A DNA stretch of 64,000 nucleotides, taken from assembly GCA_026874595.1 (NCBI GenBank), contig CM049320.1:34561714-34625713 (forward strand). The letters run 5' to 3'. The DNA is from Sipunculus nudus (Eukaryota > Annelida > Sipuncula > Golfingiida > Sipunculidae). Position 1 is the stretch's first letter, and each line of letters begins with the position of its first letter. The translations under genes were made by a program, and so were the position numbers. Below are positions 11,609-58,200 of this stretch, in pieces. The notes beneath the pieces were generated by a model. It saw nothing but the letters and a program-made list of their open reading frames with translations. It was not told the DNA's origin and made no database searches.

Positions 11609-12155
11609 ATGCGATCTGTGGTTTTAGTGTGTACCCAAAATGGCAGCCCCCATGTCATGAGCGGTTTCCGCGGAACTAAGAGAAACAAGCAACTCAAGAA
11701 ATTCATGTCCTCCGGTTTCACCTTCAAGTCCGGGATGATTTTAAAGTCGGTGGTAAGTATAAATAGTTTTAACCACGCTCAAAAGATGGCAACACCTGGC
11801 ACATACTGCCAAAAAATCAAGTATTTTATGTCCACCGCTAGCGACACCTGTTGGTGATTATAGTGAAACTAAATGTGCTGATTCATCATATAAAAAAATT
11901 AAATATCATATTTTATTGTTATCTTGTGAGACAGACACTCTAAAACCAATCCCAACCAAGGTAAACATGAAAGCAATCAATGACCCAAATTTGAATGAAA
12001 TCGGATAAAATTTAGGAAAGTTATCGAATGGAAACGAAAAACCTGACGTACGGACAGAGAGACAAACAGACAGACAGACGGATAGACAGACAGACAGACA
12101 AACAGACAAACCCTAATCAATGTCCCCCGTTCCTTCCAAGGAAGCGGGGGAAAAA
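11609..12155 (+). repeat. Family B element with terminal hairpin
   Basis: Shared with 47150-47370 are TTCAAGTC-GGGATGATTTTAAAG (written with a break) and ATAGTTTTAACCACGC followed by TCAAAAGATGG. A GACA-rich tract (about 12050-12110) precedes a strong hairpin at 12124-12150. The outer stem is CCCCCG/CGGGGG, the inner stem TTCCT/AGGAA, the loop TCCA, and there is one bulged G. AAAAATAAA follows. The small ORF at 11609-11857 is part of the repeat, not a gene. Confidence 0.7.
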
Positions 12156-13191
12156 TAAACCTGTCAAGATTTGATCAGGGGATGCGACACTGAGGTACAC
12201 AGAGGAAAGCGTTCAGGTGAGAATCTTTCTGCGGAATCTGTATCGACACAATTAGAACGGAATAACGTTTTTTTTAACCACGCCAACATCCTCAAATTAC
12301 TGTAGTATAAACGAGAGGCAGGTATGTAATGATACGCAATGAAAAATTTTATGACTTTTCTCTCCCAAACAATAATACCATTATGACGCAGAACATCCGA
12401 AAGGTCGATTTAAGATGTTTTAAAACTAACTGTTTGTTAAATGTTTACTTGTGAAATATGGGCAAATCGTTTACAATCCAAAATTGATATACAAATAGGA
12501 TATAGTTGTAAGAAAATGTTAGATATAATCCTATTAAATTGAACTGTTAATTACGCGTTTAGTATTACAAAATAAATGTCGGTTAATAAGTAGAATATAA
12601 CTCTATAGTATTTTTTTCAGAGTTTGGTATAATTAAATCCATGTCTAGAGATATCATCAGTAGAAATAATATACCTGCAGTATTCAGGATTATAATAACT
12701 GATATTTACAAACTTATTAATTCTTCTGCTGCAGTTCTAGCTTTTTTTGCGCTGGGCCTTATAAACACGGTGACCCACTAACATCGCTCACATGTTACAA
12801 CTCAGAAAATTAAGTCAAAACTCACATAGAATATCAACGGGAAATTAATACACACGCAAAAGATTTTTTTTTATTCAAAGAGATCAGACATAAAAAAAAG
12901 AAAATGGTCCAAAACAATACTGTAAAAGGGTGTAAACACTGCTGACTTAGTTTGATAAACAAAGCATCACTTGGATTTTCGTGAACACAAAATATACAAC
13001 TATTTGTTCCGGAACCAAAATGGCGTCTAAACTGAGTTTTATAAATAATTAGGTGTTTTCTTTAGAGGTCACTTATTTATTAATTTGACAATCAGGATCA
13101 AATATTTCCATTCTTGTTATAATGGCGTCCAAAAGGGACGCCAAAATGGCTGATATGGTATGAAAATAGCACACTTTCCAAAAAAATGGTA
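12156..13191. other. Intergenic, AT-rich
   Basis: No gene seen. A small perfect inverted repeat GGCGTCC/GGACGCC lies at about 13124-13143. The rest is low-complexity AT-rich sequence. Confidence 0.5.
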
Positions 13192-13374
13192 TCAAAATTT
13201 ATCATCATTAGTTAATATGAATTGTTTTGAGAAAACACCGACACTAAATATACTACGATCTGACACATGTTGATTTTATTTTTTACATTTCCGACCAAGA
13301 TAATATTTATAAACTTGATTTATTTTACATGGATTGTACAACTAGTAATAAAAACTAATACGAGGAACTCTCCA

Positions 13375-13520
13375 TGGCTCAGATGGTGGCGGTCGGTAAT
13401 TTGTAGGGGTGAAGGAAACCGGAGAACCCGGAGATTCTTACAGCCACGCCGGGAATCGAACCTGGGTCGCCAGCGAAAGGGAGCTAAGCGTTTTACCCCT
13501 CGACTCTCTATGGCTGCAAC
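13375..13520 (-). mobile_element. tRNA-derived SINE, unit copy 1
   Basis: On the minus strand AGAGTCGAGGGG (A box-like) precedes GGTTCGATTCC (B box, 13452-13462) at tRNA-like spacing. A conserved-looking downstream segment GGGTTCTCCGGTTTCCTTC follows. It is a Pol III-type retroposon rather than a tRNA gene. Confidence 0.7.
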
Positions 13521-14184
13521 CAAGATGTCACAAAAACATCAATATCTCTGCCGTGATGGCCGCTGATAGGAAATTCTGATTGAGTAGTGAGAACAGTTAG
13601 AGTGGATGTTACATGGGCGCTTAACAATGAGTAATGTGACAATAGAAGACAGAGCAGCAAAACAGCTTTAAATGACATTCAAAATGGATTCATATTTATC
13701 GGTAATTAGCCGATGGTGGTTGTGAACTGATGACAGATACAGTCAATTTTTAGTAATATTATTTACAAGGAAAATCGCACGCAATTGAGTAAGTGACCTT
13801 CTCTAATCCAGGTATATACTGATACGGTACTGGTATTCTTTTGTATTGTATATAATGAAAGAAAGTACCCAGCTTCGGTCTGTAGTACCGTGAAATAAAA
13901 TATATCAAAGACTAACAACATGATCACAAAAAACTTGCGATTTAATACAGTATCAATAATGCTCTCCGGCACCGTATATTTCAAAGCGGCAGCACTTGTT
14001 ACATCGAAAATCACACTAAAAACATAAACTAAACGGAAACATAGATTTTCCGCATTTTAAACAATATTTTACGGTCAATGAGTATGTTGCCACATAAAAT
14101 AGGCAGTCCGACCATTAACCATGCTTATGTCACATAAAATAGGCAGTCCGACCATTAAACACGCTTATGTGCTTCCTAATTGCT

Positions 14185-14625
14185 CCCATCATGGATCGGC
14201 TGGTAAGCATAACTTGAGTCGTGATAGAAGCCATATCGAGGAATGCATTGCAGTGGTCGTTCATCATGTTACATTCACATTGTGGAAAACAGCCCATAAT
14301 ATCAACATCATAGGTTACGAATGATGAATTAACACAAAAGAATACATGTGATCCCACAACCCAAACTGAAACTCCCTCTCTGTGGTAACGAGTATCTCGT
14401 ACAAGTTGGCTCCGTCAAGTCACCCATGGAAGCAATGCCTGTATTCATGCGTTCAGAAATTCAACAATCATGCGGAGGGATTTAACAATTTGCTGAGTTT
14501 TTCTCGCTCATGTTAGCCTTGTTAGAAAGTATACTAAATAATTTTAATGATTGGTCTGGTTTATGTCAACTGACAGCCAGTATGCTGGTCGTACACTCTC
14601 AGGGGCCCTAATAGCGCTATGTTCA
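14185..14625 (-). repeat. Dispersed repeat R1 within unit 1
   Basis: The reverse complement matches R1 at 6622-7185 and 59332-59922 through GGGTTGTGGGATCACATG, GGGCTGTTTTCCACAATG and TGAATACAGGCA. Equivalent segments lie at 16273-16713 and 18240-18650. Confidence 0.75.
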
Positions 14626-15279
14626 CACAACACCGGTAGTACACCTATATACATGTATTCGATTAATACGGTATCGAATACGGTTTTATTGTCTCCAAAC
14701 CCACCATTTCTTCACGCTGCTCGTATCCGTTTGCGTTTCGAAACGACCCATCTGGAGATAGTTTCTTTAACAAATTCATTAATTTTAATACGGTATTCAC
14801 ACCAACGCAGTGTGAACGCGCAGTAAAGTATGCGTGTTGAAAACCGCCTAAGCAATGCATACAAGAAAGGAACATAGCACATAGTGTACATTTTTTTTTC
14901 ATTGAAGCCGCATTGGAACATGAGGCACAAAACTATAAACGATTATTCTATGGTGTCTTTAGAAAGGAATGGGTAAAGGAAGGTGCCCTGTGCAATTCAC
15001 ATACAAATATCGCTTGGTCAGTGGCCGAAAGCCATTCATTCCGTATGCAGATAGAGATGGTATTTCTAAAAATCATAAGCCCCCGCCACCACCTACACTG
15101 AAAATGACCAGCGTGGCCGACTAACGACACATGACAACACGGTTGAACGCGTGTGCATGAATACTAATTACCCCCCCCCCCCCCACCTGCGAACCTTCCC
15201 AGTGTATAACGGTCATCAGCGTGTCAAGGTGCATTCCATTATACCTGTATAACGGGACCGCATTCCCATTATACCTTCC

Positions 15280-17370
15280 ATCAAAATGAATCGTCATTAG
15301 TTAATATGAATTGTTTTGCGAAAACACCGACACTTACCATACCACGATCTGACAGATGTTGATTTCTTTTTTACATTTCCGACCAAGATAATATTTATAA
15401 ACTTGATTTATTTTACATGGATTGTACAACTAGTAATAATAACTAATACGAGGAACTCTCCATGGCTCAGATGGTGGCGGTCGGTAATTTGTAGGGGTGA
15501 AGGACACCGGAGAACCCGGAGATTCTTACAGCCACGCCGGGAATCGAACCTGGGTCGCCAGCGAAAGGGAGCTCAGCGTTTTACCTTTTGACTGTCTATG
15601 GCTGCAACCAAGATGTCACAAAAACATCAATATCTCTGCCGTGATGGCCGTTGATAGGAAATTCTGATTGAATAGTGAGAACAGTTAGAGTGGATGTTAC
15701 ATGGGCGCTTAACAATGAGTAATGTGACAATAGAAGACAGAGCAGCAAAACAGCTTTAAATGACATTCAAAATGGATTCATATTTATCGGTAATTAGCCG
15801 ACGGTGGTTGTGAACTGATGACAGATACAGTCAATTTTTAGTAATATTATTTACAAGGAAAATCGCACGCAATTGAGTAAGTGACCTTCTCTAATCCAGG
15901 TATATACTGATACGGTACTTGTATTCTTTTGTATTGTATATAATGAAAGAAAGTACCCAGCTTCGGTCTCTAGTACCGTGAAATAAAATATATCAAGGAC
16001 TAACAACATGATCACAAAAAACTTGCGATTTAATACAGTATCAATAATGCTCTCCGGCACCGTATATTTCAAAGCGGCAGCACTTGTTACATCGAAAATC
16101 ACACTAAAAACATAAACTAAACGGAAACATAGATTTTCCGCATTTTAAACAATATTTTACGGTCAATGAGTATGTTGCCACATAAAATAGGCAGTCCGAC
16201 CATTAACCATGCTTATGTCACATAAAATAGGCAGTCCGACCATTAAACACGCTTATGTGCTTCCTAATTGCTCCCATCATGGATCGGCTGGTAAGCATAA
16301 CTTGAGTCGTGATAGAAGCCATATCGAGGAATGCATTGCAGTGGTCGTTCATCATGTTACATTCACATTGTGGAAAACAGCCCATAATATCAACATCATA
16401 GGTTACGAATGATGAATTAACACAAAAGAATACATGTGATCCCACAACCCAAACTGAAACTCCCTCTCTGTGGTAACGAGTATCTCGTACAAGTTGGCTC
16501 CGTCAAGTCACCCATGGAAGCAATGCCTGTATTCATGCGTTCAGAAATTCAACAATCATGCGGAGGGATTTAACAATTTGCTGAGTTTTTCTCGCTCATG
16601 TTAGCCTTGTTAGAAAGTATACTAAATAATTTTAATGATTGGTCTGGTTTATGTCAACTGACAGCCAGTATGCTGGTCGTACACTCTCAGGGGCCCTAAT
16701 AGCGCTATGTTCACACAACACCGGTAGTACACCTATATACATGTATTCGATTAATACGGTATCGAATACGGTTTTATTGTCTCCAAACCCACCATTTCTT
16801 CACGCTGCTCGTATCCGTTTGCGTTTCGAAACGACCCATCTGGAGATAGTTTCTTTAACAAATTCATTAATTTTAATACGGTATTCACACCAACGCAGTG
16901 TGAACGCGCAGTAAAGTATGCGTGTTGAAAACCGCCTAAGCAATGCATACAAGAAAGGAACCTAGCACATAGTGTACATTTTTTTTTCATTGAAGCCGCA
17001 TTGGAACATGAGGCACAAAACTATAAACGATTATTCTATGGTGTCTTTAGAAAGGAATGGGTAAAGGAAGGTGCCCTGTGCAATTCACATACAAATATCG
17101 CTTGGTCAGTGGCCGAAAGCCATTCATTTCGTATGCAGATAGAGATGGTATTTCTAAAAATCATAAGCCCCCGCCACCACCTACACTGAAAATGACCAGC
17201 GTGGCCGACTAACGACACATGACAACACGGTTGAACGCGTGTGCATGAATACTAATTACCCCCCCCCCCCCCCCCACCTGCAAACCTTCCCAGTGTATAA
17301 CGGTCATCAGCGTGTCAAGGTGCATTCCATTATACCTGTATAACGGGACCGCATTCCCATTATACCTTCC
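15280..17370. repeat. Tandem ~2.09-kb unit, copy 2
   Basis: It repeats copy 1 nearly exactly. The first ~80 bp agree better with copy 3 (CTTACCATACCACGATCTGA) than with copy 1, which suggests unequal crossing-over or conversion among copies. Confidence 0.95.
15462..15610 (-). mobile_element. tRNA-derived SINE, unit copy 2
   Basis: Same element carried in the second tandem unit. Its B box GGTTCGATTCC is intact. Confidence 0.7.
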
Positions 17371-17549
17371 ATCAAAATGAATCGTCATTAGTTAATATGA
17401 ATTGTTTTGCGAAAACACCGACACTTACCATACCACGATCTGACAGATGTTGATATTTTTTTACATTTCCGACCAAGATAATATTTATAAACTTGATTTA
17501 TTTTACATGAATTGTACAACTAGTAATAGTAACTAATACGAGAAATCTC

Positions 17550-17690
17550 AATGGCTCAGATGGTGGCGGTCGGTAATTTGTAGGTGTGAAGGAAACCGGA
17601 GAACCCGGAGACTCTTACAGCCACGCCGGGAATCGAACCAGCGAAAGGGAGCTCAGCGTTTTACCTCTCGACTGTCTATGGCTGCAACAA
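17550..17690 (-). mobile_element. tRNA-derived SINE, unit copy 3, damaged
   Basis: Same element in the third unit. A small deletion next to the B box removes the TGGGTCGC stretch found in the other two copies. Confidence 0.65.
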
Positions 17691-18650
17691 AGATGTCACA
17701 AAAACATCAATATCTCTGCCGTGATGGCCGCTGATAGGAAATTCTGATTGAGTAGTGAGAGCAGTTAGAGTGGATATTACAATGAGTAATATGACAATAG
17801 AAGACTGAGCACCATAACAGCTTTCAATTACATTCAAAATGGCCTCGTTTTTATCAGCATTTAGCCGATGGTGGTTGTGAATTGATGACAGATACAGTTT
17901 ATTTTCAGTAATATTATTTAGAAGGAAATCACATGCAGTTGAGTAAGTGACCTTCTGTAATCCATGTATATACTGATACGGTACTGATATTCTTTTGTAT
18001 TGTATGTAATGAAATAAAGTATCCAGCTTCGGTCTCTAGTTCCGTGAAATAAAATATATCAAGGACGTACAACATGATCACAAAAAAACTTGCGATTTGA
18101 TACAGCATCAAAAATGCTCTCTTGCACCCAATATATCAAAGCGGCAGCACTTGTAAAATCGAAAATCACACTAAAAACATAAACGAAATGGAAACATAAT
18201 TTTCCGCATATTTAACAATGTCTTACGGTCAAAGGGTAACATGCTTATGTGCATGATTTCTAATTGCTCCCATCATGGCTGGGCTGGTAAGCATAACTTG
18301 AGTCGTGATACAAGCCATATCGAGGAATACATCGCAGTGGTTTTCAATCATGTTGCATTCACATCGTGGTAAACAGCCCATAATATCAAAATCATAGGTG
18401 ACGAATGATGAGTCAACACAAATGAATACATGTGATCCCACAACCGTAACTGAAACTCCCTCTCTGTGGTAACGAGTATCGCGTACCAGTTTGCTGCGTC
18501 AAGTCACCCATGGAAGCAATGCCTGCATTCATGTGTTCAGAAATTCAACAATCATGCGGAGGGATTTAACAATTTGCTGAGTTTTTCTCGCTCATTCTCG
18601 CCTTGTTTGAAAGTATACTAAATAATTTTAATGATTGGTCTGGTTAATAT

Positions 18651-18960
18651 AGGGCTGTACCAATATATCGATATATCGATACGAATCGATACAAGACGTC
18701 GATACGATAATCGAAATGCGTTGCATGCTGTTTTGGTCGTATCGATTGATTGTTAATGCATAGGGATATAACTCTAACTTTAAATATAACCATAACGATT
18801 TATAAATTTAAATGCACTGTATATTTGTTGCTTTGGCTTTTAAAACTTGTTAATAAAAGTATATACGCATGCACATCAGTACTTTCATGACAAGCAGGCA
18901 CATGTGAGTGATAATAGGAGAATGATTCTGACAATCCGATATAATACAAAAAATTTATTT
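18651..18960 (+). mobile_element. hAT-like TATCG-rich element, copy 2
   Basis: It starts AGGGCTGTACCAATATATCG and contains TGCATGCTGTTTTGGTCG and TTTCATGACAAGC, matching 2937-3270. It interrupts unit copy 3 exactly where homology to the other units stops. The right end is not resolved. Confidence 0.5.
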
Positions 18961-19292
18961 TATGTCGGTTTTTACAAACAAAGACAACATTACCATAGGC
19001 TATTATGACCGACCACACTCTTATCATACATTAATTAAAATTAAATAATTTAAAATATTATAAATAATTATAAAAATACATTAACTTACATAATAATAAA
19101 TATCACAAGTCTGATCAATTTTAAGGATCTAAGTTAAGCATAAAGTTGTATAATGCGAATAACATTTGATTTATAGTCCTTAAAAATTACAGTGACCAAT
19201 TCATATTGAAAAAAAATCACAATAAGGCATCAAGTGACAAAACAAATAGGAAATGGCATACGGCCCAAAGAAGGAGGTCAGTTTTTACAAAG

Positions 19293-19620: not shown

Positions 19621-20089
19621 AAATAAATGGTTAAAGCCTGGGGACAAATCCTGTACAAACAGGAGAGTGACTAATGGGATTCATATTCACAGAAATATAC
19701 AAAACTGTGGGGGGGGGGGGGTGCATAAGGCACAAAGAGGAAGAAGAAGGTATTCACACCAACGCAGTGTGAACGCGCAGTAAAGTATGCGTGTTGAAAA
19801 CCGCCTTTTTTATCTATAAACATTTTTTATGGTGTCTTTAGAAAGGTATGGGTAAAGGAAGGTGCCCTGTGCAATTCACATACAAATATCGCTTGGTCAG
19901 TGGCCGAAAGCCATTCATTCCGTATGCAGATAGAGATGGTATTTCTAAAAATCATATTACTGATATGTATCTGCAGTTCTAATTATTTACTTGTTATATC
20001 TCACAGGAGGAGATATGAATTGACTGTTTTGATATATGACCAGTAATTACATTTCCAGAATATACACTTTGCAATGGTTTAAGGATATA

Positions 20090-20269
20090 CAGTGAAACCT
20101 CCTTGTGTCGAACTCGCTTAAGTCGATTACCCCACTTATGTCGAAGTTACAGACTCGATATTCCGGACGATTCTAGTTAAATTATAACCAAATAAAACCC
20201 GCTTGTGTCGAATCTCGGATGTGTCGAAGTTTTCGGAGGGCCCCTTCGACTTGACACAACGAAGTTTCA

Positions 20270-20272
<3 letters not shown>
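20090..20272. mobile_element. pogo-like MITE, copy 1
   Basis: 183 bp flanked by TA on both sides (20088-20089 and 20273-20274). The termini CAGTGAAACCTCCTTGTGTC and GACACAACGAAGTTTCACTG are inverted repeats. TA duplication and a CAGTGAAACC end fit Tc1/mariner-pogo (Tigger) non-autonomous elements. There is no ORF. A (TA)n tract (20271-20350) starts at the right TA. Confidence 0.85.
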
Positions 20273-20359
<87 letters not shown>

Positions 20360-20959: not shown

Positions 20960-21020
<61 letters not shown>

Positions 21021-21170: not shown

Positions 21171-21729
21171 CTGATTTATTCTTGGTAGGGTTCTCTCAGG
21201 AATAGTTCAGGTTCATTTTATTTTGGTAGAGTCATGATCATGGAAAGATGAAGTTGTTCATGTGACCAAGTAAGCCTATCTCAAACTGGGGGCTGCAATA
21301 GTCTCCTTCCGCAAAACTGTTGTATCAAATTATATAACATTGCACAAAAATGATTCTTGGTTGGCCTTTCTTCAAGTTTTCTCGATGATTTTTGGCTGAA
21401 TAATTGGACATTTAACAATGCAAGGACTGGGAGGTACCTTGATAACAAAGCTAATTTACTGTAGTAGGAAAGTGTATATAAACAGAGCTGGACAGGCAAT
21501 ATAAATGATTGGTGTCCATATCAAGCTATGTGTAAGATTAATACATCAAATTACTTTGATGCCAGCTAGATTTCATGCTTCAATGGATTGATTCAGGAAT
21601 AATCCAGAAGTCATAGCCTGTCGTTAACACGTTGGAGTGAATCTCTGAGGTTTAACTGAGATAAATGGGACCTTTTCACATATAAGGCATCTTAAATAAA
21701 CTTGAAATATATTGTGTGATACCTCACAT

Positions 21730-23425
21730 ACGGATCATTTTCCTTGGAACTCTTGTACACACAACAGAGGGAGATACCTACCACAATTATAATTCATAGG
21801 TCTCTTGTACTCACAACACAGGGAGTTACCTCACAAAGGCATCATTCATGGAGCTCTTGTACACACAACATAGGGAGTTACCTCACAAAGACATCATTCA
21901 TGGAGCTCTTGTACACACAACAGAGGGAGTTACCTCACACAGGTACCATTCATGATGCTCTTGTACACACAACACAGGGTGATACCTCGCATAGGGATCA
22001 TTCATGGAGCTCTTGTACACATAACAGAGGGAGATAACTCACAAAGGCACTATTCATGGAGCTCTTGTACACACATCAGAGAAACATAACTCACACAGGC
22101 ATCATTCATGGAGCTCTTGTACACACAACAGAGGGAGATACCTCACATCGGGATCATTCATGGAGCTCTTGTACACACAACAGAGGGAGATACCTCACAA
22201 AGACATCATTCATGGAGCCTTTGTACACCTCAGGGGACAATTCATGAGGCTCTTTTACACACAACAGAGGGAGATACCTCACACTGGGACCATTCATGAG
22301 GCTCTTGTTCACACAACAGAGGGAGATACCTCACACAGGTACCATTCATGATGCTCTTGTACACACAACACAGGGTGATACCTCGCATAGGGATCATTCA
22401 TGGAGCTCTTGTACACACACAAGAGGGAGATAACTCACAAAGGCACCACAAAGCCATGATTTATGGAGCTCTTGTACACACAACAGAGGGAGATACCTCA
22501 CATTGGGATCAATCATGGAGCTCTTGTACACACAACAGAGGGAGATAACTCACAAAGGCACCATTCATGGAGCTCTTGTACACACATCAGAGAAACATAA
22601 CTCACACAGGCATCATTCAAGGAGCTCTTGTACACACAACAGAGGGAGATATCTCACAAAGGCATGATTCATGGAGCTCTTGTACACACAACAGAGGGAG
22701 ATACCTCACATTGGGATCATTCATGGAGCTCTTGTACACACAACAGAGGGAGATACCTCACAAAGAGATCATTCATGGAGCCTTTGTACACCTCAGGGGA
22801 CAATTCATGAGGCTCTTGTACACACAACAGAGGGAGATACCTCACACAGGGACCATTCATGAGGCTCTTGTTCACACAACAGAGGGAGATACCTCACACA
22901 GGTACCATTCATGAAGCCCTTTTACACACAACATAGGGAGATACCTCACACAGGGACCATTCACGAGGCTCTTATAAACACAACACAGGGTGATACCTCA
23001 CACAGGGGCTATTCATGAGGCTCTTGTACACACACAAGAGGGAGTGCCTCACACATGAACAATTAATGAGGCTTTTTTACACACAACAGAGGGAGATACC
23101 TCACACAGGGACTATTCATGAAGCTCTTTTACACACAACGTAAAAATATACCTCACACAGGGGCCATTCATGAGGGTCTTGTACACACACAAGAGGGAGA
23201 CACCTCACACATGAACAATTCAAGAGGCTCTTGTACACACAACACAGGGAGATACCTCACACAGGGACCATTCATGAGACTCTTATACACACAAAATAAA
23301 AATATACCTCACACAGGGACCATCCATGAGACTCTTATACACACAACAGAGGGAGATATGTCACACATCACACAGGGATCATCCATGGGGCTCTTGTACA
23401 AAACACGGAGGGAGACACTTTACAC
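21730..23425. repeat. 52-bp minisatellite, about 32 copies
   Basis: Unit core: TTCATGGAGCTCTTGTACAC, ACAACAGAGGGAGATACCTC, then ACA and a variable 8-9 nt. The period is 52 bp, so open frames appear in all three phases and are not genes. Longer segments recur, for example the variant GGAGCCTTTGTACACC at 22214 and 22777. That shows block duplication of about 10-11 units. Confidence 0.95.
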
Positions 23426-24283
23426 ATTCACTTGTTAGGATTAGTGTTCACACAGAAGCACCTTGCAATCAATCCACAGCAGTGTTGCTCATATATCATG
23501 ACTAAATCATATGTCCTGAGTTCTTGCAGCATTAATGTAAATACTAATATATGGACAACATCAGGATTTTATTTTCAAACATCAACCATTGCATATAAAG
23601 CTGTACACAAGAGACTACAATGTAGTAGCCACCTTACAATGAAAAAGTCTTAACACATCAGGTCTTGACTAATTATGACATAAAACTAAGATTTTTAAAA
23701 CAATTACACTTAAAACCAGTAACCCAGAACATAATAAAACAAATGCTACATTGATACAGTATTTACCAATAATGTATCCTATGTCAAGAACATAAGCTCT
23801 AGCAATAAAATTGTAGAACTTCTGTGAGGGTTTGGTATCATATAGAAAATAACTGACATTTAAAAGATAACACCAAAAATTTAAGTTCAGTAATGCCAAA
23901 CCTGATAGTTCTGAAGTCTAGTCGAGATCCATTCTGTTAAGATCATAAATTACCAACCACTAGATCTGCAGTGTATGTAAGTTCCAGTACACTTATATAC
24001 ACTAATAAAACATTTAAAACATGATATATCACATACAAAACAATCTTGGGTAGATTAAGAAAAGTTTTAACATTTTCATTATTTTGGTAATTTGCATATT
24101 CATATATGATCATTTGTCATTTTCTACTTTAAAACAGCTATATCCCTGATAATTACCAAAATGAAAGGGTCCTAGATTTTTCAAAATAAATTATTATTGC
24201 TAATTCTACCAAAAGGATGGTCTTCTTTGCCTTATCCGTAAAGTCTATGAGTATGCCCAGTTTAAAACAAAAACAGTGTGTAT

Positions 24284-24370: not shown

Positions 24371-24372
<2 letters not shown>

Positions 24373-30349: not shown

Positions 30350-31090
30350 GGACCCATGTGTTTTAACATTCAGCTGAATTTGTCTGTAAGGATATTTTTA
30401 TGACCTTACTCAAAATGTGGGTCCTGTGACCTTGGCCCATAAACTTGTGACCAAAAAATCTGAGAACTAACCTTGAACTTACAGCAGTTTGATTTTCATG
30501 ACAGTCTGTCGAAACGAGTGGCCCATAGGCCATGACGCTCAGCTGAATTCAAGTAGCCTTGAACAATGGGTAAAATTACTACTGGAGTGCTCAAAATCAT
30601 GCATTTTGTCAATAGACCTTAGCTACAGGTTACATTGACCTTATTCTAAATCCAGCTGCTACCATTTGTGCCCATCTGACTAATACTATGATATGAAAAT
30701 CATATTCTTTCACAAAGCTTGCAGAATATAGGTCATAGTGACATAATTTCAGGTTTCCAAGGCGGCTTTGAATGGACCTCCCTGAAAGTCATGTTTGAGA
30801 ATTCTAGGCCAAATGGATACCATTTGTGCCCAATCTGACTCACTGAGTACTTAAAAATCATGTTAACCCCCTTAATCACAAAATAGAGGTCACCATGACC
30901 TAATTTCAGGTTTCCAGTGAAATTTGCCAAGGAACTCCCTGGGTGTAAAGTTAGAAATGTATAGGTCTAACAGTTATGGTTTGTACCCTATTAAGAGCCA
31001 GACCACTTAATTTGAAGTTCTCAAAAATAGGGAAAAATGTGTAAAAATAGAAACAAGGGACCTATGGGTCACGACGCTCAGCTGTTATAT
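30350..31090 (+). repeat. Diverged family A modules with two 5' motifs
   Basis: GTGGCCCATAGGCCATGACG at 30519 and GGGACCTATGGGTCACGACG at 31057 are variants of the family A 5' motif, each followed by CTCAGCTG. Between them are diverged modules with ACATAATTTCAGGTTTCC and CCTAATTTCAGGTTTCCAG. Probably two adjacent old copies. Confidence 0.6.
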
Positions 31091-32299
31091 ATGATAAAAA
31101 AATATTATTTAGAAATGAGGCACATGCTGGTTTTGTGTGGTAATAAATATAAGCTGTATTATGAGTTGTTGTTGTTTAGCATATGTATGATTTTGATAGT
31201 ACCTTTGGAGACAGGGAAGAGGATTGATTTCATTTATTTTATTAACAATTGGAGTACTATTGTCACAAAGATTTTGACTTGGCCATATAACTTATAAGCA
31301 GAACATATAATATAAGAGTTTAACTATTTATTAAAAAAATTACAAATATTGTCCCAAATATAATTTTTATTAAAAATAATAAGAGAATCATATGATTCTT
31401 TAAAATGAAATATAACTGATATGATTATTAAAATAATATTAAAGAATATATTCATGAATGCATTCATGAATACATTTTGAAAGTATTTGCACAAGTATTC
31501 ATATACTTTCATTTTTACCTGAATTCCCATTCTTTATGCAAGAAATTTTATAATGGAGTACATAATCATATTTGTATTTAAATACAATTACAAAGTATTC
31601 GCACCATGTCTGGTATTTATTCAATTTTCACCAAACAATGATGTTGAGAATCCAGAATATACAAAATTCACACATTTAAATAATGATCATAAGTACCTGG
31701 TTTTATGGCTTTTATTTATATTAAAAAATTACTGTAAAAAATTCATTTTGGACTAATTTCACATCAATGTACACACTAGACACAGTAGGAATCTAGATTA
31801 ATATTATCAACTGCATCTTTGTCTATCATTAATTTCCTTCATATGATCCCAAATGATTAGTAATGAATAATATGATTTACTTCTTTATCATTAAAATTGA
31901 ACTAAAAAATGCCATAGGTGACTGCATGGTGTTATTTGGAATATGTGACATTCTACCCATCGATACAAGATTCTTATATCATCAGTAACTGCAAGTTAAT
32001 TTCCTGTTATTATAAACTAACAAATTCCTTTTCTATTTTTCTTTAATTTGTTATTAAAAACCAATAAAAATTTATTAATTTGTTGTTTATTGATATGTTG
32101 TTGGTTAAAACTACTAGATGAGTTGGGTTGGACACCTGGATCAACTGTGGCTGGCCATAAGCTGCCTGGATTCCTGTATGCCTCGCCTCAAGCGTGCATA
32201 ATTTGATGAAAGGTCAACAAGGTCAACATACAGGTGACTCAAGAGGGGCTGGAGAGAGCCAAAGTCTGACAGGGTCTCATAAAAAACATTAATAAAAGC
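31091..32299. other. Very AT-rich spacer
   Basis: Long A/T runs and ORFs of biased Ile/Lys/Asn/Phe composition. No gene seen. It may be an expanded interior of the family A element that starts near 31057 and ends at 33684. Confidence 0.45.
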
Positions 32300-33690
32300 T
32301 ACAATTTTTGGCCAATTTCTTTCAGCTTTCTAAACTAAAAAGCTGAAATCCTTATGTGTGCATGATATGAAAATTATATCAACAGTGCTCACGGGAAACA
32401 AACGTGCCATGGTCACAGTTGGGCAAAATTTAAGGTACTAATTTTATATTTATACTAATAACTAATAAAATTTGAAAAATTCAGAACTAATTTTGGGTAT
32501 TCAATTGAATCTTGATTAAATAATGTTACATCCCTGACAAAAAAATCTCCAGCAATGCCCTTGTTAAGGGAGTAAATATATTTCTTGATTTTTTACAAAG
32601 TGCATTATGTTTGGGCCCATAACTTAAAACAATTACGCAATACTGACATCATTCTGGGATGTGCATAGAGAATGAAAAATATGTATATTGTTTATGATTA
32701 AAGTCAGATCAGTGGTTTTGATATTAGGCAGTCTTGAAGTGTAACAATGGGTTTTTAATGGAAAAATGAAGTTTTTCATTAATATCTCGAAGGTATTAAG
32801 TCCGAGTGACCAAATTCTTGGCATGGTAGGGGATTTTGGAGACATCTAACTGTATGCTGAATTTAAGGAACTTAGAGCTGAAGCTGGGGAGCTGAGCTTT
32901 TGCAAACTGCATAACACTAGCTTGATGTAAACAATATGTTACATGGTGCTTGAAAACTTGATTAAAATCTGCAGTTTTTGATCAACTGGTTTCAAATTCT
33001 TGGTGTTAACAGTTGAAATGCTGACAAAAACATGCTGTGAAAATTAAATCCACAGTACTTACAGGAAAAAAACGTGCCATGGTCAAAGTTGGGCAAAATT
33101 TAAGGTACCAATTTTTTATTTTTATTAATATTTTAAAAAATTTAAAAGATTTTCATCTAATTTTGGGTATGCAATTTAATTTTGATTAATTAAAGTTATA
33201 TTACTGGAAAAAAGGTCCACAGCTTTAACATTTTTTGTGTTAAGTGATCAAATATCTTTCCTTATTTTTTTCAAAATGCATTATGATTGGGCCCAGAACT
33301 TTTTTAAATTAAATAATACAGACATAATTTCTGCCATGTACATAGGAACTATATAGAGGAATATTTATGGTAAATATGAGGAAAAACAGATGAGTGGTTT
33401 TGATATTAGGCAGTCCTAAAGTGTGAAAATAGGTTTTTAATAAAAAATTGAGGTTTTTCCTTAATTTCTCAAAGGAACAAAGTTGCAAAGACCCAGTTTT
33501 CGGCTTGGTAGGAGATCTTGGGGACATCTAACATTATGCTGAATTTTGGATTCCTAGGTCTTACGGTTTCAAAACGTGCCACATCTACGGACGGACGGAC
33601 GGACGGACGGACGGACAGACGGACGGACGGACGACGGACAATGGACCACGACTATAGCTCAGATGACTTATAGTCAGCTGAGCTAAAAAT
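32300..33690 (+). repeat. ~669-bp tandem modules ending in the family A 3' hairpin
   Basis: ACGTGCCATGGTCACAGTTG (32402) and its near copy (33071) are 669 bp apart, and the following sequence matches again (GTGGTTTTGATATTAGGCAG). The array closes with a pure GGAC tract (33589-33640) and a hairpin at 33656-33684 with the family A stem and AAAAA. So the same 3' terminus caps a different internal module. Confidence 0.75.
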
Positions 33691-34015
33691 ACAGGTGGTG
33701 CCACCAGCCTGCAGGAAGACCCCAGGGTCAATATGCATGAAAGATATCATGGCAACCAATAAATTAGTTTCCAGGTTATTTTTTTTGTTATTACTCTGAG
33801 TGTACTTATGAGCCCTATCACTGATGATTTGGGCAACAGAGACCTAATTTCAGGGTTTCCAAAGAGATTTTTCATTGACCTTCCTGGATGTCAAGTACGA
33901 AGATTTTAGGTCCAACTGTTACTATTTGTGCCCAGTTATTGGACAGACAGATGGACGATGGACAAAGAATGATTGCAATAGATCAGATAACTTACAGTTG
34001 GCTAAGGTAAAAATT
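33691..34015 (+). repeat. Partial family A copy, second hairpin end
   Basis: GGTGGTGCCACCAGCCTGCA (about 33697), module sequence, GGACAGACAG, then a hairpin-like end at 33980-34008 and AAAAA. The inner stem TAACT/AGTTG differs from TGACT/AGTCA of the other copies but stays paired. The outer stem has decayed. Confidence 0.6.
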
Positions 34016-46200: not shown

Positions 46201-49200
46201 ATTTATTTTATAAGTATCTTTGAAGTATAAGAATACAATTATTACAGACAGAATACTAAAAATTGCCAAAGATCCTCCATGGTATGCTGATATTTTTTAA
46301 TGATATAAACTGTAGTTTTTCTTTTTGTTTGCCAGGGTTTCAAAATCCTGATATTCACGAATGCGATTTATAGGGATACTAAACACATCATGAACAGGAG
46401 ACACTTTTGTTGAAGGCAAGATTGATATAATGGAATATCACAGATCTTTTATGTTGAAAGACTGCTATTGTAAATGATATCGGATCTGTTAAATTATATG
46501 CCATTAATGAGCAGTTATTTTTACATACTATGATAGTTGATATAATTAATTCATATAATAAGGGTTTTACTGTTGGAAGGACTTTTTGTTTTGTAAGATT
46601 GTGAAAATGGAACTCAAACATAACATTGAAAAGGTGAAAATTGCAAAATTTTAACCCAGCAAACATGAGGCCAACCACAGTTTAAGGTGAATAAATGTTC
46701 ACATATCAAGTCCCTCTCCCCTGTTCACGGAGAGTAACAACATGTCCTTTCATGATTTAAACTTTGTAATGCCACTGTAAGATCTCAGGAGTAGTGAATA
46801 ATGAGGGAGATTATAAGTTTATAACAAATGTCCTCGTCAAGGGCTAACATATATTTGGTATGAACATCTGCCTAGTCAGCAGCTAAGCTCACCAAATGTC
46901 AATACATCAAACAATTTTACATCATTTTCAACAATGAGAGTTGTGAGGTGCATAACTTCTCAGCGTAAAACCTGGTACTAAGGCTTTGCCTCTGTTTTTC
47001 TTTGTCATGTGTGCAGTGCACGTGCTAAGCCTTCTTTAAAATTTATATGAGTTTATCTGTAATTGAGTTTATATGTGAAATGGACAAAAACAATGATAAT
47101 ACTATCAGGCTATTATTTACATATGTGTGCATGCATAGGGACAGATGGAACAAGCAAATTCAAGGAATTTATGTCCCCCTCTTCAGCCTTCAAGTCCCGG
47201 ATGATTTTAAAGTCTGTAGTGACCAAGTACAAATAGTTTTAACCACGCTCAAAAGATGGAAACTTATCACATGGAAACAAAAACCTAATGGACGGACAGA
47301 CAGGCAGGGGGACAGAAAAACAAACCCAAATCAATGTCCCCTGTTCCTTCCAAGGAAGCAGGGGAACATAAAGTTGCAAGATGGGCAGTTCAAGATGTTG
47401 TAAAGGCAACTGACCTCAGGAAAAACACTCTGAAAACAACTTTTGCTGCCTTGAGTGCCCCAGGGTATCATTAAAACAATTAGGTTCCTTTAAGAGGAAA
47501 CAGTGACATACCTGGCCCAAGTTGTCTGTAATGTGCATGGTAAATCCTCGCTGTGGTCCACAACACTGACGCATACAGGTGTCAGACTCTGTGAAGGACA
47601 AGAACAGAATGCATAGAATTTATATCATGTGGACAAAGTACATCAGCAGGTAACTTTTTCAAAGATGCACAACTCTATATCATAAGCACTATAATCAGAC
47701 TGATAGGGCCTATCTTGAGTGGTATCAACAGTCATGTAGAAAACTGCACTGAAATGACTGCTAATTCTCTCACAATAACATCACTGTATACAGCCATTAA
47801 CCATAACACAAGGCTATAAGCTAGGCAGGAATTAACACAACAGAATACATGTGAATTTACAAAGAATAAACCAAATATCAGTCACATAACCCATTGAAAA
47901 CAATTTAAACATGCTTGTATAAAGTCAGAAATTAAAAAAACATGCACATTAATTTACTAATTCCCTGGTAAATAATATATTTTTAATTCAAGGAATTATA
48001 TATCATTATGACTCAGGGCAATTCCTTTGTTAAGCAGATAATAGGGTGAAAACTTTTACTGAAGCTTGACACTGGGTATAACACATGAATGCTTGATAAG
48101 GGAATCCTCTGGCCTGCCAAAGGTAAATAACCAAAAAAAAAACGAGTATGTGCTCCGGGAAAAAAAAGTAGACTTCTTTGAAATAAAGAGTAAAAATTAC
48201 CTTCAATTTCCCCATTATTTATCGCAGACTGAATAAAGATGTGCTTCGCTTACCACAACATATATCGACACATATCATTCCCAAAGTCAGAAACATACAT
48301 GGCCCCTGCAGAAAGATAAGGGCATTTTCCACATGTTGTGACACATACTGGACATTTGCACCCAAAAATTGTGAAATATTCCATTTTTGTTCTAACTGAA
48401 CTGTTAAAACAGGAGAAAAAATAGTAAATACAAAGCTGATTGATTTCATGAAAAAAAAAGAGGAAAAAAAAAAAAAAAAGAGTGCTGCTGAAAAAGATTC
48501 ATCAGGAACCTGTATGGTGGGGGTATCCAGGTTGTCGTACGACAGTAACCACTATATTCATCTAGTTTACGATATTTTCTCTCTCTCTCTATATATATAT
48601 ACTAAGCATATGATGAGGCGTGCTGTATGTAGATTAGAAAGTGTTCCTTTACAAGTGGTGCATTGCTGGACAGGATTGGCAATATCACATTGAAAAGAAA
48701 TCACTATGTATTTTAATAAATATTTTTGGGAAAACTCATAAATCACCAGGTAATTTTTAATAGATTTTTTTAAATTCAGCAGTTAATGTGGTATATGCTC
48801 AGAAAGAATGACTGACTGCAAATATCTATGAAGCTAAGGAGACTGTTGTATGAAGGAGTAAGCAGGCAAAGTAGAATAGCTCTCGGGTAAAAGCTCATAC
48901 CAAACACCAGAATATTTCATATGTGGACTATATTCAGTATTCATTTTTCAGCAGTGGTTCCAGGCTAAATATCAAGCAAAACAAAAAATGTCATGCATAC
49001 TTATCTGAACTGCATGTTAGTGGGGTCAGTGGCGGATCCAGGAGTCCTTACCCCCTCCTTTTGACCCGCAAAAAACTCTTTCCAGGGTTTATAACCAATT
49101 TATCTGGCCTGGACTTCCCCCTTTCTGGATCTGAGTAAAGTTTTCGTATTAGACTTCAAGGGTTGGACCTTCCCCTTTCCAAAATTCTTGATCCGCAGAC

Positions 49201-52200: not shown

Positions 52201-55200
52201 AATGAAGTGGTCTCAAACATAGAATTCCTTCATGTTCTTGGTTTGCAAATATTTGTGCAACATATTAATTTTTTAATGAATTGACAGTTATTCACAATTT
52301 TTTTATGAGGGGGTAAAATTGCATACATCGTCCAGCTGTTGTGTCAGTCATTGTGCTCCAAAGGTCTTATCCACTGCAACTCTTTGCACAACAGACTGGC
52401 TAGCTTTATTTTCTAATTAAGAACATTTGACATGGGCCTCAGACAAAGTTACGACTATATTCCACATGAATGCATTGGTAAATACAAGTTTATAATAACC
52501 TACCTTCAAACAGTTCTACCTGTTGATGGATAAGTATCTGATCCACCTGCGTGAGGTACTCAAGGCCAGGTGGACATCCAGGGATTGCTGCTGGACGCTG
52601 CATCCATTGTATCTGTCCCTGTCCTGGTGCTGCTCCTGATTAAAACAAGGATATATGTACAGAACAAAACCCATTAGTGCTATAATAGGTCACTCCATGG
52701 AATAGTGGTCTGCTATGATCAGATCTAGTGAACCAATATTAGGTGTTTTCTTCATTTGAATGAGATACAGGGCAAAAACTCTGACAAGAACCTCTTAGTT
52801 TTTTCATTTGATATATAATAAATACAATCTTTATCTGTTGATATAACCTGAACACAGTGTAAGTAGTTGCCAACAGATGTTACTCATGTGATATATATAT
52901 ATATATATATACATGGGTCATGCCACAGTAAAATGGGCAATTACCTATTTATCTGGTCTCTCCTCATTCACTTGTCAGCAACTAGTAAAATGTTTAACAC
53001 AGATCTGTACATATATATGCAAACCTTGGCATATAAAGAATAGATTATTGCATGAGAAGGCCTTTCCCAATACATGCATTGTCAAACAAATAACATGTCC
53101 CCAATGCCAGGAGTTAGGATATCACATCATTTGCAACACTGGATAAAGAATTTATTCATTACCTTAATAATCTAAATTCAAGTCCAAGGTTGCAAGGAGC
53201 ATTTGCCCACATTAATATTTTTTTGGAAGCTTTCCTGTCCTGTCCCCCAGTTTTATGTCAACTCTGTCACAAAAAGAATTGTATCAAAGCAGATTGACAA
53301 TTATTTACTCAAATCTTTATTCAAATATAAAATGTTGCATGGACATATTTTATCCATGTAACACTGTTTTCTACATTACATGTATGAAGTATAAGATGTG
53401 AGCCCTTTATATCCCTATAATGGAGAGAGGAAATTAACATGTCAAATATGTCACAGCTTATTCATCCTAAGAAATATATAAATGTGTAAAATCTTATTAT
53501 GTTCATGAAAAAACATGTAATTTCTGTTAAAAATCTTTAATCACAAGCTTTAAACAAAATTTAAGCAATTGTCAACTCTGTTGCAGTCAACTGCCTTGCG
53601 TGACCTGGTTGACATGTCTGTGTTTTGAGCACTGACTATTTAACAAAGCTTTAACCATTATAAGAAATGCTAATATATTGCATATTCTATCATATTTCAA
53701 ATATACTTTATGTGTATGCTTATTTGAAATTCAATTTATTTAGTTTCAGGCAATGCTTATGATTTATGAACTGCCCAACTACAGTTACCCTGCAGAAAAA
53801 TCACGGCATTATGATTTTTCATCTGAAACACCCCATGCTATTTACAAAACTGAATGTTATCATATTTAACAGTTTGGGTAATAGGCCATCAAAGTTATTT
53901 GAAAACTAGACATTTCTTGGCATTGTAGATGCCATGGTATCCCCAGATAATTTATCCTCCCCCCCCCTAAAACAAGTGACCCATGGGTCATGACGCTCAG
54001 CTGACTGGGAAGAGATTCGCAAAAGGAAATTTTATCATTAGAATGGTAGTATATACCCATTCAACTGAAGCATCAAACAGATTAACCAACAGGCCAAGAT
54101 TTAGTCTGTATTTATATATCTCAAAAATAGAGAAAAATGTGTAAACTTTTAAAACTAGAATACGGGTAACCGACAAGTGACTACATGTATCTGCCAAAAT
54201 CGGATAGTGAGGCATGGATTGAGTGGCAAGGGGAAATAGAGTGAGGTATGTTGCATATTAGCATGGATGTCTGCAGCCTAAATGTGTATGTAGGTTGTGC
54301 CACCTACCACAAATCCAGAAAGCTGTCCAAGTTGTATACACCTGCAAAATTTTAGGCAGAAAAGTCAAACCACTACATGTATATGAGCGATTTTTGCCCA
54401 TGGCAGACAAACAGACAAACACTGTGCAAAAATCTTTGCAGGTAACCCCTCCAGTTTTGTGTATGATAAAGACCTATGTGAGATCTAAACACATGCACAA
54501 TTTTGGCCCAATCGGTCAAATGGTTCCTGAGATATGAGCTTGGATGTGTGCAGCGTTAACTAGAATGTAGGTGGCGCCACCTGTCATAAAATCAAGAAAG
54601 CTGTCCACGATGTAAAAACCTGCAAAATTTTAGGCAGTTATGTCGAACCACTTCAGAGAAATGAGTGATTTTAGGCCACGGCAGACTAACAGACAGACGC
54701 TGTGCAAACATTGTTACAGGTGGCGCCACCATTTTTTGTGTATGTTACAGAGCTATCAAAGGGCTACATTTGTATAAATTTTATTTCCTGATCGGTCAAA
54801 CGGTTCCCAAGATATAAGCTTGGATGTCATCAGCGTGAACGTGAACGTAGGTGGCGCCACCTGTCATAAAATCAAGAAAGCTATCCTGGATCAATATGCA
54901 TGACGAATTTCAGGTGAATTAGTCAATTCACTGCAGAGATATGAGTGATTTTAACCCAAGGCAGATGAACAGATGGACACTGTGCAAACATGGTTACAGG
55001 TGGCGCCACCATTTTTTGTGTATGTTATAAAGCAATCCAAGGGCTACATTTGTATCAATTTTATTTCCTGATTGGTCAAACGGTTCCCGAGATATGAGGG
55101 TTTATGAGTGGAAACAGACCCACAAATGGACACTGGATAGAGAGGAAAGGTCAGAGGTCAACGCAAATTGGTGAGGCACCAGTTCACATGTGACCCGATA

Positions 55201-58200
55201 ATAGGTGTAAGTTTGGGAAAAATCGGTCCATTATTCTCCGAGGAGCTCTCTGGAAACGAATGCCGCCGCGGTGGAGGAACTCGGTCAAAAACATAGTATC
55301 CGCAAAACTTCGTTTTGGCGGATACAAAAATACAGGTGGCTCCACCAGTCTGCAGAAACTAATAAAAACACTTAATGGTCAATATCCATGCAAAAAATCA
55401 TGGTGATCTCTGCATTAGTTGTTCAGATACTTCAGTTTTTGTATCAAATTGTCCATTATTCTGAGGGATACTTCGGAGTCCTATAGCTTGAAGGATATGG
55501 GTAACAGAGACCTAATTTCAAGTTTCCACAGGCACCTTTCATGGGCCTCCTTGCATGACAAGAATGAAGATTCTAGGTCCAGTTGTTGCGATTTGTACCC
55601 TGTTGACAGATAAACACATCTTTAAAGGTCTCAAAAAAAAGAAAAAAATTTGTAAAAATTTGAAAAAAAATAGAGGTGGCACACCCAGTCTGCAGAAACT
55701 GATGGAACAGCTCATGATCAATATGTATGCCGAAAATTATGACCATCAGTGTTGTAGTTATTGAAATACTGCAGTTTTTGTATCAAATTTTCCATTATTC
55801 TGGGGGGGGGGTATTTTGGACCCATACAGCTTAAAGAATATGGGTAACAGAGACCTAATTTCAAGTTTCCATGGAGACTTTTCATGGGTCTCCCTGTGTG
55901 TCAAGAATGAAGATTCTTGGTCCAGTTTTTATGATTTGTGCCCTGTTAACAGATGTTCATATCTTTAAAGGTCTCAAAAATACAGAAAAATTTCGTAAAA
56001 AAAACCTAACAAATACAGGTGGTGCCACCAGTCTGCAGAAACTTATGAAACACTCCATGATCAATATCCATGCAAACAATTATGGTTATCTCTGCATTAG
56101 TTGTTCAGATACTTTAGCTTTTGTATCAAATTTTCCATTATTCTGAGCTGTACTTTGGAGTGCCATAGCTCAAAGGATATGAGTAACAGAGACCAAATTT
56201 CAGGTTTCCATGGAGACTTATCATGGGTCTCCCTGTGTGTCAAGAACGAAGATTCTAGGTCAAGTCGTTACGATTTGTACCCTGTTGACAGATAACTACA
56301 TCCTTAAAGGTCTCAAAAATGGAGAAAACAATTCGTGAACATTGAAAAGAAGGTGGCGCCACCAGTCTGCACAAACTGATGAAACATCTCATGATCAATA
56401 TGTATGTTGAAAATCATGACCATCAGTGATGTAGTTAATGAGATATTGAAGTTTTTGTATGAAATTATTGACTATTCTGGGGGGTAATTTTGGGCCCCAT
56501 AGCTCGAAGGATATGGGTAACAGAGACCTAATTTCTGGTTTCCATGGAGACTTTTCATAGGTCTCTCAGTGTGTCGAAAATGAAGATTCTAGGTCCAGTC
56601 GTTACGATTTGTGCCACGCTAACAGATGACAGCATCCTCAAAGGTCTCAAAAATAGAGGAAAAAATCGTAAAAAATCAAACAGTACAGGTGGCGCCACCA
56701 GTCTGCAGGAACTGATCGAACATCTCATGATCAATATGTATGCCAAAAATGAAGACCATCAGTGATGTAGTTATTGAAATATTGAAGTTTTTGTATGAAA
56801 TTTTTTACTATTCTTGGGGGGTACTTTGGGGCCCCATAGCTCGAAGGATATGGGTAACAGAGACCTAATTTCTGGTTTCCAAGGAGATTTTTCATGGACC
56901 TCTCAGTATGTCAAGAATTAAGATTCTAAGTCCAGTCTTTATGATTTGTGCCTTGTTAACAGATGTTCAAATTTTTAAAGGTCTCAAAAATAGAGAAAAA
57001 AATTCGTAAAAAATCGAAAAATACAGGTGGCGCCACCAGTCTGCAGGAAGTGATGTAACATCTCATGATCAATATGTATGCCAAAAATCATGACCATCAG
57101 TCAAGTAGTTAATGAGATATTGAAGTTTTTGTATGAAATTTTTGACTTTTCTGGGGGGTACTTTGGGGCCACATAGCTCGAAGGATATGGGTAACAGAGA
57201 CCTAATTTCTGGTTTCCAAGGAGATTTTTTATGGACCTCTCAGAATCCCAAGTTACAAGGTTCTAGGTCCAGTTTTTACGATTTGTGCCTGGTTAACGGA
57301 CGGACAGACGGACGACGGACAAAGAGTGATCGCTATAGCTCAGATGACTTTCAGTCAGCTGAGCTAAAAAATGACCCCCTATCTTTAGAAGCATACACTG
57401 ACACTTTGCAAGCCACCAGGGTTTCTTCAGGTGTTAGCTTCGAAAGCAGGGTCAAGGTCACTAATCTCTTTCAACAACTTTCATCATCTGACATCTTTCA
57501 TTTTGATTTTCAGATTGATACAGCTATCCACTTGGGTAACAATATTTTTCACCATATATGGGAATATTCAAGGTCAAGGCCATTCAGAAAAGGTCATAAC
57601 CCCAATTTAAATAGATATCATTCCATAGCCCATATGCATAATATGAAAAGAATCTTTCCATTAGTTTTTTACTTATAATGGTCACAGTACTGTCAAGTTG
57701 CAATGATGGGGGTATTAAAAGGCGCAAAAAAAAAAAAAAAAAAAACAGGTAGTGCCACCAGTGTTAGGTACATGACAATGCTATCTAAGTTCTTCAGTCA
57801 ACTTGATTTTGGAACAATCCATGCGAGATGTTTTGAAAAACTTAAGAAATTGTGTGTTTTTTTTTTAAAAATTGACCTATAATATATACAGTGAAACCTC
57901 GTTGTGTCGAAGGGACCCTCAGAAAACTCTGACACATCTGAGGTTCGACACAAGCGGGTTTCATTTAGTTAAAATTTAACTAGAGTTGTCCGGAATATTG
58001 AGTATGTAACTTGGACATAAGTGGGGTATTCGACTTTAGCAAGTTCGACACATTGAGGTTTCACTGTACTTCTTTCTGACACTGATGCACATTTACATCT
58101 CAGAGCGTTTGTAGTTCTGTTCAATCATAAAGACCTCACAGAGGTTGGCTTGTATGATTTTGCATAGACTTAACTTAATCAGGTCAGTCATCAAGTTTGG

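Follow-up and report, generated by a model that had tools for sequence, protein, structure and literature searches.

A stretch of 64,000 nucleotides from the annelid Sipunculus nudus (assembly GCA_026874595.1, contig CM049320.1, positions 34,561,714 to 34,625,713; hereafter the window, numbered from its first letter) contains nine copies of three repeat families, termed A (A1 to A5), B (B1, B2) and D (D, D'). An earlier note on this DNA had described six hairpins in these families, and all six were recovered by a structural scan at their coordinates and with the layout given for them on the plus strand, where the order is modules, GGAC/GACA tract, hairpin and A-run. Three copies had been missed: two of family A, whose hairpins are decayed and whose 5' ends lie near 5602 and 34006, and one of family D that lacks the hairpin end (60519 to ~63540). 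The hairpins had been taken for 3' ends with an A-rich tail. They are actually 5' ends on the minus strand, the tail being the T-run of the other strand, and the orientation of the families is hereby corrected. On the minus strand a T-run is followed by a subterminal inverted repeat (subTIR) that forms the hairpin together with a partial inverted repeat (IR), by a GTCC/GTCY microsatellite (not in D), by satellite-like modules (not in B), by a second subTIR and by a palindrome near the 3' end.

This order was published for the start of HINE/DINE-1-like elements, with a subTIR, a complementary IR a few bases inside, a microsatellite of the GTCY type and satellite-like repeats (PMC7492417, PMC2374699, PMC4067079, PMC3630058). 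According to this literature, members of the group should also possess another subTIR and a palindrome towards the opposite end, and their target should be rich in T and show no target site duplication (TSD). Their 5' subTIR measures 11-15 bp and has a hairpin-forming IR or palindrome, the microsatellite is common but not found in all of them, and a Rep/helicase/endonuclease partner sharing the ends is expected. The same plan was also published for Calliphora (PMC3630058). Families A, B and D are very probably HINE/DINE-1-like elements, that is, non-autonomous rolling-circle transposons of the Helentron type, lying on the minus strand. Directly seen are the two-ended architecture (A and D), the T-run target, two empty sites without visible duplication and nested insertion. 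The shared fold is the 5' subTIR paired with the partial inverted repeat just inside it; the fold itself is real and most of it is explained by the published group. The supposition that no named family has this layout does not hold, since HINE/DINE-1-like elements, Pearl and Cg_HINE form such a group. New here, as far as published descriptions of HINEs allow a comparison, are probably the three families. What appeared as a puzzle of unrelated repeats with one fold turns into new families of an abundant and poorly understood rolling-circle group.

Both strands of the window were scanned with a motif defined from the hairpins themselves, and 60 first-order Markov simulations in 2-kb blocks served as control. 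The motif matched 16 times compared with a simulated mean of 0.67, and the matches with at least five A in the six bases after the stem numbered five (simulated mean 0.017, maximum 1 in the 60 simulations), namely three A copies, B1 and D, while B2 has four A. As the motif was taken from the hairpins and three of these matches belong to one family, the figures speak for the non-randomness of three families and are no independent discovery. On the element strand the hairpins read AGCTCAG-C-TGACT-GAA-AGTCA-T-CTGAGCT in A3, CCCCCG-C-TTCCT-TGGA-AGGAA-CGGGGG in B1 and GTATCCGC-C-AAAAC-GAA-GTTTT-GCGGATAC in D. The 5' subTIR with its hairpin-forming IR at the 5' edge folds as DNA in A1, A2, A3, B1, B2 and D, with -6.7 to -10 kcal/mol and z scores of -3.0 to -6.5 (A2 -4.42, A3 -3.58, D -6.47); D' is without that end. 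One stem pair shows a compensatory change between B1 (CCCCCG/CGGGGG) and B2 (CCCCTG/CAGGGG). A search of Rfam gave no matches at the gathering score. A microsatellite of the GTCY type inside the 5' end is present in A and B, and the GGAC/GACA tracts noted earlier before these hairpins were found by tract search in A1, A2, A3 and B1 and by reading in A4, A5 and B2. Repeat modules had been said to precede all hairpins, which is borne out for A and D but not for B, whose two copies of 467 and 216 bp hold no tandem modules.

The second subTIR was assessed by the best ungapped 13-nt match within the last 61 nt of eight elements, compared with 2400 shuffles. The best match to the subTIR of the own family reaches 9 in A2, 12 in A3, 11 in each of A4, A5, D and D', 8 in B1 and 9 in B2; the subTIRs of the other families reach at most 8 in the six A and D 3' ends, and the maximum in shuffled ends was 10 for A and 11 for D (2 of 2400). 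A convincing 3' subTIR is accordingly present in 4 of 5 A copies and in both D copies, and in neither of the two B copies. The 5' subTIR of family A reads AGCTCAGCTGACT on the element strand. The 3' core of this family, CGCTCAGCTG, occurs exactly four times on the plus strand (5005, 30536, 31075 and 53994), each time preceded by a palindrome of the TGACCCATGGGTCA type at the left edge of A4, A5, A2 and A3, respectively, and these four left edges are mutually similar from one common edge onward. The 5' subTIR of family D, TATCCGCCAAAAC, has 11/13 matches at 54188 and 60552, the left edges of two arrays of 278-bp modules; further 11/13 matches on the plus strand, at 43660 and 50137, adjoin no array and are presumably due to chance. 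The 3' subTIR lies inside the element, some 23-35 nt short of its 3' edge, and all eight 3' edges found read CT(T/A/C)(G/A) followed by TT. The 3' palindromes have stems of 4-6 bp in A2, A3, A4, A5, D' and B2 and of 3 bp in D, while B1 has none. Between the palindromes of A3 and A5 one A-T pair is replaced by G-C, which is a compensatory change.

Two of the elements are nested, A2 in a module of A5 and D in a module of A3, and in both cases the joined flanks align through the junction to intact modules. For D the identity is 83% over 166 columns (query 61-221), and for A2 it is 91% over 54 ungapped columns with the module of A4 (query 80-133) and 71% over 177 columns with another module (query 20-185). 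With a slash for the junction, the element strand reads cacctgtatttt / (g)tttctattttt at A2, compared with cacctggattttttttt ctattttta in the module of A4, and cacctgtattttt / ttaaaagtttacac at D. Insertion into a T-run explains the A-run that follows the hairpins on the plus strand; B2 is an exception with the flank AACATAAA. For elements of Culex the T-string was described as part of the element, variable in number (PMC4067079). The elements thus carry satellite-like modules and insert into the T-runs of one another's modules. All nine elements have the same orientation. As the strand of the T-run may have dictated this for the nested A2 and D, seven cases count as independent, for which the two-sided chance is about 0.016 (calculated by hand).

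The families had been described as having no visible sequence similarity, which stands for the ends but not for the modules, as those of A and D are alike (local score 54 compared with a shuffle mean of 22 and maximum of 38, 500 shuffles). The aligned stretch begins at a CAGGTGGCGCC(A/T)CC motif. Among 15 module pairs tested, only A-D (z 9.8) and A-A5 (z 26, one family) exceeded all 200 shuffles, and A2-D (z 5.7) scored 45, below the best shuffle of 46. A2 possesses A-family ends with a different module (z 1.5 for A2 vs A). No homology of the B module with those of A or D was found in five comparisons (z -0.7 to 0.2). A core box shared by all families (approximately GAAC..TTGACCGATT..GAAATTTG) was considered and set aside, as it was not borne out across the families. 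With a profile built from 22 sites in D modules, the top match beyond the regions used for training lay in an A module (57084, 9.6 bits). The boxes next to the tracts of B1, D and A2 were absent from the 45 highest-scoring sites beyond those regions, and weak sites in A2 (32607 and 32303, -1.8 and -3.3 bits) and B1 (11778, wrong strand) lay amid many apparently random ones.

Table 1. Copies of families A, B and D in the window and their parts; the assignment as HINEs is very probable.
Feature	Position	Strand	Remark
A1: modules, GTCC tract (~2430-2475), 5' hairpin 2491-2519	1094..2520	-	module similarity starts at 1089-1094
A2: complete family A HINE	31055..33685	-	both ends match A3; inside A5 module
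A2 modules: two, spaced 670 bp, 74% identical	32283-32864 and 32953-33546	-	
A2 5' hairpin (subTIR and IR), unpaired C, loop ATA	33656..33684	-	fold
A2 GTCC/GTCY microsatellite (GGAC on plus strand)	33589..33640	-	
A2 3' subTIR core (CGCTCAGCTG on plus strand)	31075..31084	-	exact core; 9/13 to 5' subTIR
A2 3' palindrome (4 bp folded)	31059..31070	-	
A3: HINE, modules spaced ~337 bp, interrupted by D	53971..57366	-	
A3 5' hairpin, unpaired C, loop GAA	57337..57365	-	fold
A3 GTCC/GTCY microsatellite	57298..57319	-	
A3 3' subTIR, 12/13 complementary to 5' subTIR	53994..54006	-	
A3 3' palindrome (TGACCCATGGGTCA)	53977..53990	-	
A4: HINE with modules, 5' hairpin decayed; 3' subTIR 5005-5017 (11/13), palindrome 4988-5001	4982..5602	-	
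A5: HINE interrupted by A2, 5' hairpin decayed; 3' subTIR 30536-30548 (11/13), palindrome 30519-30532	30512..34006	-	
B1: hairpin 12124-12150, GTCT/GTCC tract; 3' subTIR doubtful (8/13), palindrome not folding	11684..12150	-	
B2: shorter B copy (without internal part compared with B1), hairpin 47338-47364, palindrome 47156-47170, weak 3' subTIR 47175-47187 (9/13)	47149..47364	-	
D: HINE, 278-bp modules, no GTCC tract, inside A3 module	54153..55325	-	
D 5' hairpin, unpaired C, loop GAA	55296..55325	-	fold
D 3' subTIR, 11/13 complementary to 5' subTIR	54188..54200	-	
D' (second D-type): 278-bp modules, without 5' hairpin end, approximate right edge, foldback element inside	60519..63540	-	
D' 3' palindrome (GACTACGGGTAGTC) and 3' subTIR (11/13)	60524-60537 and 60552-60564	-	

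Among the closest published systems, Cg_HINE of Crassostrea gigas and the bivalve elements named with it as related or similarly built (Pearl, DTC84, MgE) resemble the elements in having a 5' subTIR of 11-12 bp with a complementary IR 1-12 nt away, in several elements a GTCY/GTCC/GTCK microsatellite, arrays of satellite-like modules, a 3' subTIR with palindrome and a T-rich target without TSD (PMC7492417). Group 2 of Cg_HINE combines similar flanks with unrelated repeats, as is the case for A2 and A3, and the module spacing differs, by description, with ~337, 278 and 670 bp here compared with 138-181 bp there (PMC7492417). DINE-1 of Drosophila shares a subTIR of 13 bp, a partial or interrupted IR beside the 5' subTIR, a GTCY-rich microsatellite, central repeats, a 3' stem-loop and TT insertion, while its subTIR sequences (Table 1 of PMC2374699) differ from those found here. 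HINE-Mo of the mite Metaseiulus occidentalis has a subTIR near the 5' edge, a 3' palindrome and a T-rich target as well; its subTIRs are palindromic without a separate IR, and its 3' subTIR lies ~38-60 bp from the 3' edge compared with ~23-35 nt here (PMC4067079). The Helitron2-type elements FoHeli1 and FoHeli2 of Fusarium oxysporum possess a 5' hairpin with a GAA loop, as do A3 and D, and an inverted repeat 38-51 bp from the 3' end, but they are ~5-6 kb long, are part of an autonomous Helitron2-like group, have a short 5' hairpin and insert at TNAT/A (PMC5148889).

The earlier note had mentioned, as one example, that a reverse transcriptase (RT) might bind the hairpin at a 3' end. A, B1 and D do carry 5-6 A within a base of the hairpin on the plus strand, which speaks for retrotransposons of the LINE/SINE type (long and short interspersed nuclear elements) that have an A-rich tail and a common 3' hairpin recognised by the RT. 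However, the A-run belongs to a T-rich target or boundary, the other end carries in A and D the complement of the hairpin's own arm together with a palindrome, and the two empty sites show no TSD, which in such retrotransposons would be of variable length; moreover, no tRNA-type gene was found by ARAGORN (bacterial setting) and no RT domain in ten scanned open reading frames (ORFs), a search that was not exhaustive. The hairpin is the 5' subTIR with its IR of a Helentron-type element, and a retrotransposon origin has only a minute probability. For DINE-1, an RT was likewise proposed and then set aside (PMC2374699). Equally hard to credit are DNA transposons with terminal inverted repeats (miniature inverted-repeat transposable elements, MITEs) that carry subterminal repeats: the ends are inverted and complementary over 11-13 nt, and DINE-1 and Pearl were formerly called MITEs (PMC2374699, PMC7492417), yet the 3' copy is clearly internal, no TSD beyond T is present, and the elements have a 3' palindrome and a 5' microsatellite. 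Canonical Helitrons (Helitron1, with 5' TC, 3' CTRR, insertion between A and T and no inverted repeats) were rejected, as the ends carry inverted repeats and the target is a T-run; the 3' edges before TT are CTTG, CTTA, CTCG or CTAG, and of these CTAG alone, found in D and D' (2 of 8), agrees with CTRR.

Less remote, but still improbable, is that family B alone is an unrelated repeat in which a similar hairpin lies by chance beside a GACA tract. Its 3' subTIR is weak and its modules share no homology with those of A or D; against this stand the same hairpin layout, the GTCY tract, the palindrome of B2, the oligo-T edge (in B1; TGTT in B2) and a 3' edge that, as in A, reads CTTG before TT. Of the three families, B makes the weakest case for a HINE/DINE-1-like nature and is supported mainly by its 5' side, the folding palindrome in B2 and the 3' edge.

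Several observations weigh against the assignment of the families to HINE/DINE-1-like elements. In B only the palindrome of B2 folds, tandem modules are lacking, and the 3' subTIR matches are within chance in B1 (8/13) and little better in B2 (9/13, with at least 9 reached in 23 of 2400 shuffles). The 9/13 match of A2 is also weak alone, as 78 of 2400 shuffles reach at least 9, so that the 3' end of A2 rests on the exact core and on the similarity of its edge to A3. For A1 no 3' edge is detectable, and a C/A mismatch on the element strand reduces its folded inner stem to 3 bp. The hairpins of A4 and A5, two of the five A copies, are decayed and do not form (DNA fold z 0.17 and -0.06), and D has no GTCC tract in the 96 nt adjoining its hairpin. 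The 3' palindromes are energetically modest: for the seven that form a fold, between 3 and 40 of the 200 shuffled versions reach an equally good one, and for B1 all 200 do. At both nested insertions into a T-run no duplication is visible, and a TSD of one or a few T would not show. Finally, no autonomous Helentron was seen among the ten ORFs scanned, which gave one Pfam match (a G-protein-coupled receptor, GPCR).

That one mobilising machinery, possibly of the rolling-circle kind, handles all families fits the evidence, while the specific forms in which this had been proposed do not. Apart from the RT, a hairpin acting as rolling-circle terminator had been considered, and for DINE-1 this role was suggested for a separate 3' stem-loop (PMC2374699). 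Judging from the literature, a Rep/helicase from an autonomous Helentron elsewhere in the genome would recognise the 5' subTIR hairpin as single-stranded DNA, nick within the T-run and displace the strand, probably via a circular intermediate. The enzyme would stop at the 3' subTIR and palindrome, and insertion would take place between T and T. Each 5' subTIR would co-evolve with its own IR and 3' subTIR, which could explain why the fold is kept and the sequence is not. Speculatively, the shape of the hairpin would be recognised over its sequence. Three families in one window suggest a testable code, by which a Helentron transposase could recognise many non-autonomous families unrelated in sequence.

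A possible new rule is that in A, B and D one C of the 5' subTIR finds no partner in the local inverted repeat, with loops in A and D being mostly GNA. This C is bulged in B and D and lies opposite T in A, and a G to pair with it is preserved in the 3' subTIR of 4/4 A, 2/2 D and 1/2 B 3' ends. As the IR is without the base that pairs with C and the 3' subTIR keeps it, a transposase might tell the start hairpin apart from a complex of paired ends. The predicted duplex energies (subTIR-IR/subTIR-3' subTIR) are -12.0/-16.6 for A3, -12.0/-13.6 for A2, -12.4/-10.8 for D, -12.4/-13.0 for the D 5' end with the D' 3' end, -13.3/-5.2 for B1 and -12.1/-8.8 for B2, so that pairing of the two ends gives the stronger duplex in no more than three of the six cases. 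In the alignment A1 to A5 have the loops GTA, ATA, GAA, GAA and GTA and D has GAA (5/6 GNA), while B has TGGA; when folded, only A2, A3 and D have a 3-nt loop, which is GNA in two of the three. GNA triloops are unusually stable in DNA, and a GCGAAGC mini-hairpin is mentioned in published work. The start of D. melanogaster DINE-1 shares the layout of the hairpins described here, its loop being GTA and its subTIR being the part that is confirmed. This subTIR reads ATACCCGTTACTC, and the inverted repeat of DINE-1 was called "partial and/or interrupted" (PMC2374699). In the literature covered, we met no mention of a base that always stays unpaired in the 5' hairpin, and the word "bulge" is absent from the main text of PMC4067079 and from that of PMC7492417. 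It is a tentative idea, and in our view a rather unlikely one, that Helentron-type elements have their 5' end recognised by its single-stranded DNA shape and not by its sequence, the shape being made up of a 6-8 bp stem, one base that must stay unpaired, a second stem of 5 bp and, in many cases, a triloop of the GNA type.

Searches for relatives covered viral and prokaryotic collections, which carry little weight for an animal element. The GTCC-tract pattern gave 10 loci in viral contigs, and core-box patterns gave none in viral contigs and 6 in bacterial genomes, near chance by our own estimate. A hairpin scan of these 16 loci yielded 6 matches in 4 loci (L003, L005, L007, L008), none with an A-rich flank, and hairpin patterns of A and of the Drosophila DINE-1 start gave no loci in viral contigs.

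Inside D' a foldback-like element is located at 60720-61215, with arms at 60823-60985 and 61047-61209 that are 93% complementary and ends that read, by eye, GTCACAGGCGAAAT.../...ATTTCGCCTGTGAC. Apart from the three families, the window contains an intronless reading frame of a rhodopsin-family GPCR at 8128-9132 on the plus strand (Pfam 7tm_1, E 1e-37). With this frame and with repeats of a bivalve-like kind, the sequence by itself has the look of animal and probably molluscan DNA. A unit of 2.0-2.1 kb is present in three copies in tandem at 13772-18553, the aligned stretches of which are 91-100% identical to the reference copy. Near or in these units GGTTCGATTCCCGGCGTGG is found on the minus strand before 13412 and 17589, which we take to resemble the tRNA-type B box of a SINE. 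A 52-bp minisatellite at 21624-23453, with 28 copies of a 300-nt reference in register, yields repetitive ORFs. Inverted repeat copies of 170 nt at 20081-20250 and 57906-58075 are 87% complementary, adjoin CAGTGAAACCTCGTTGTGTCGAAGG and are, as we presume from their resemblance, perhaps the remnant of a dispersed DNA transposon.

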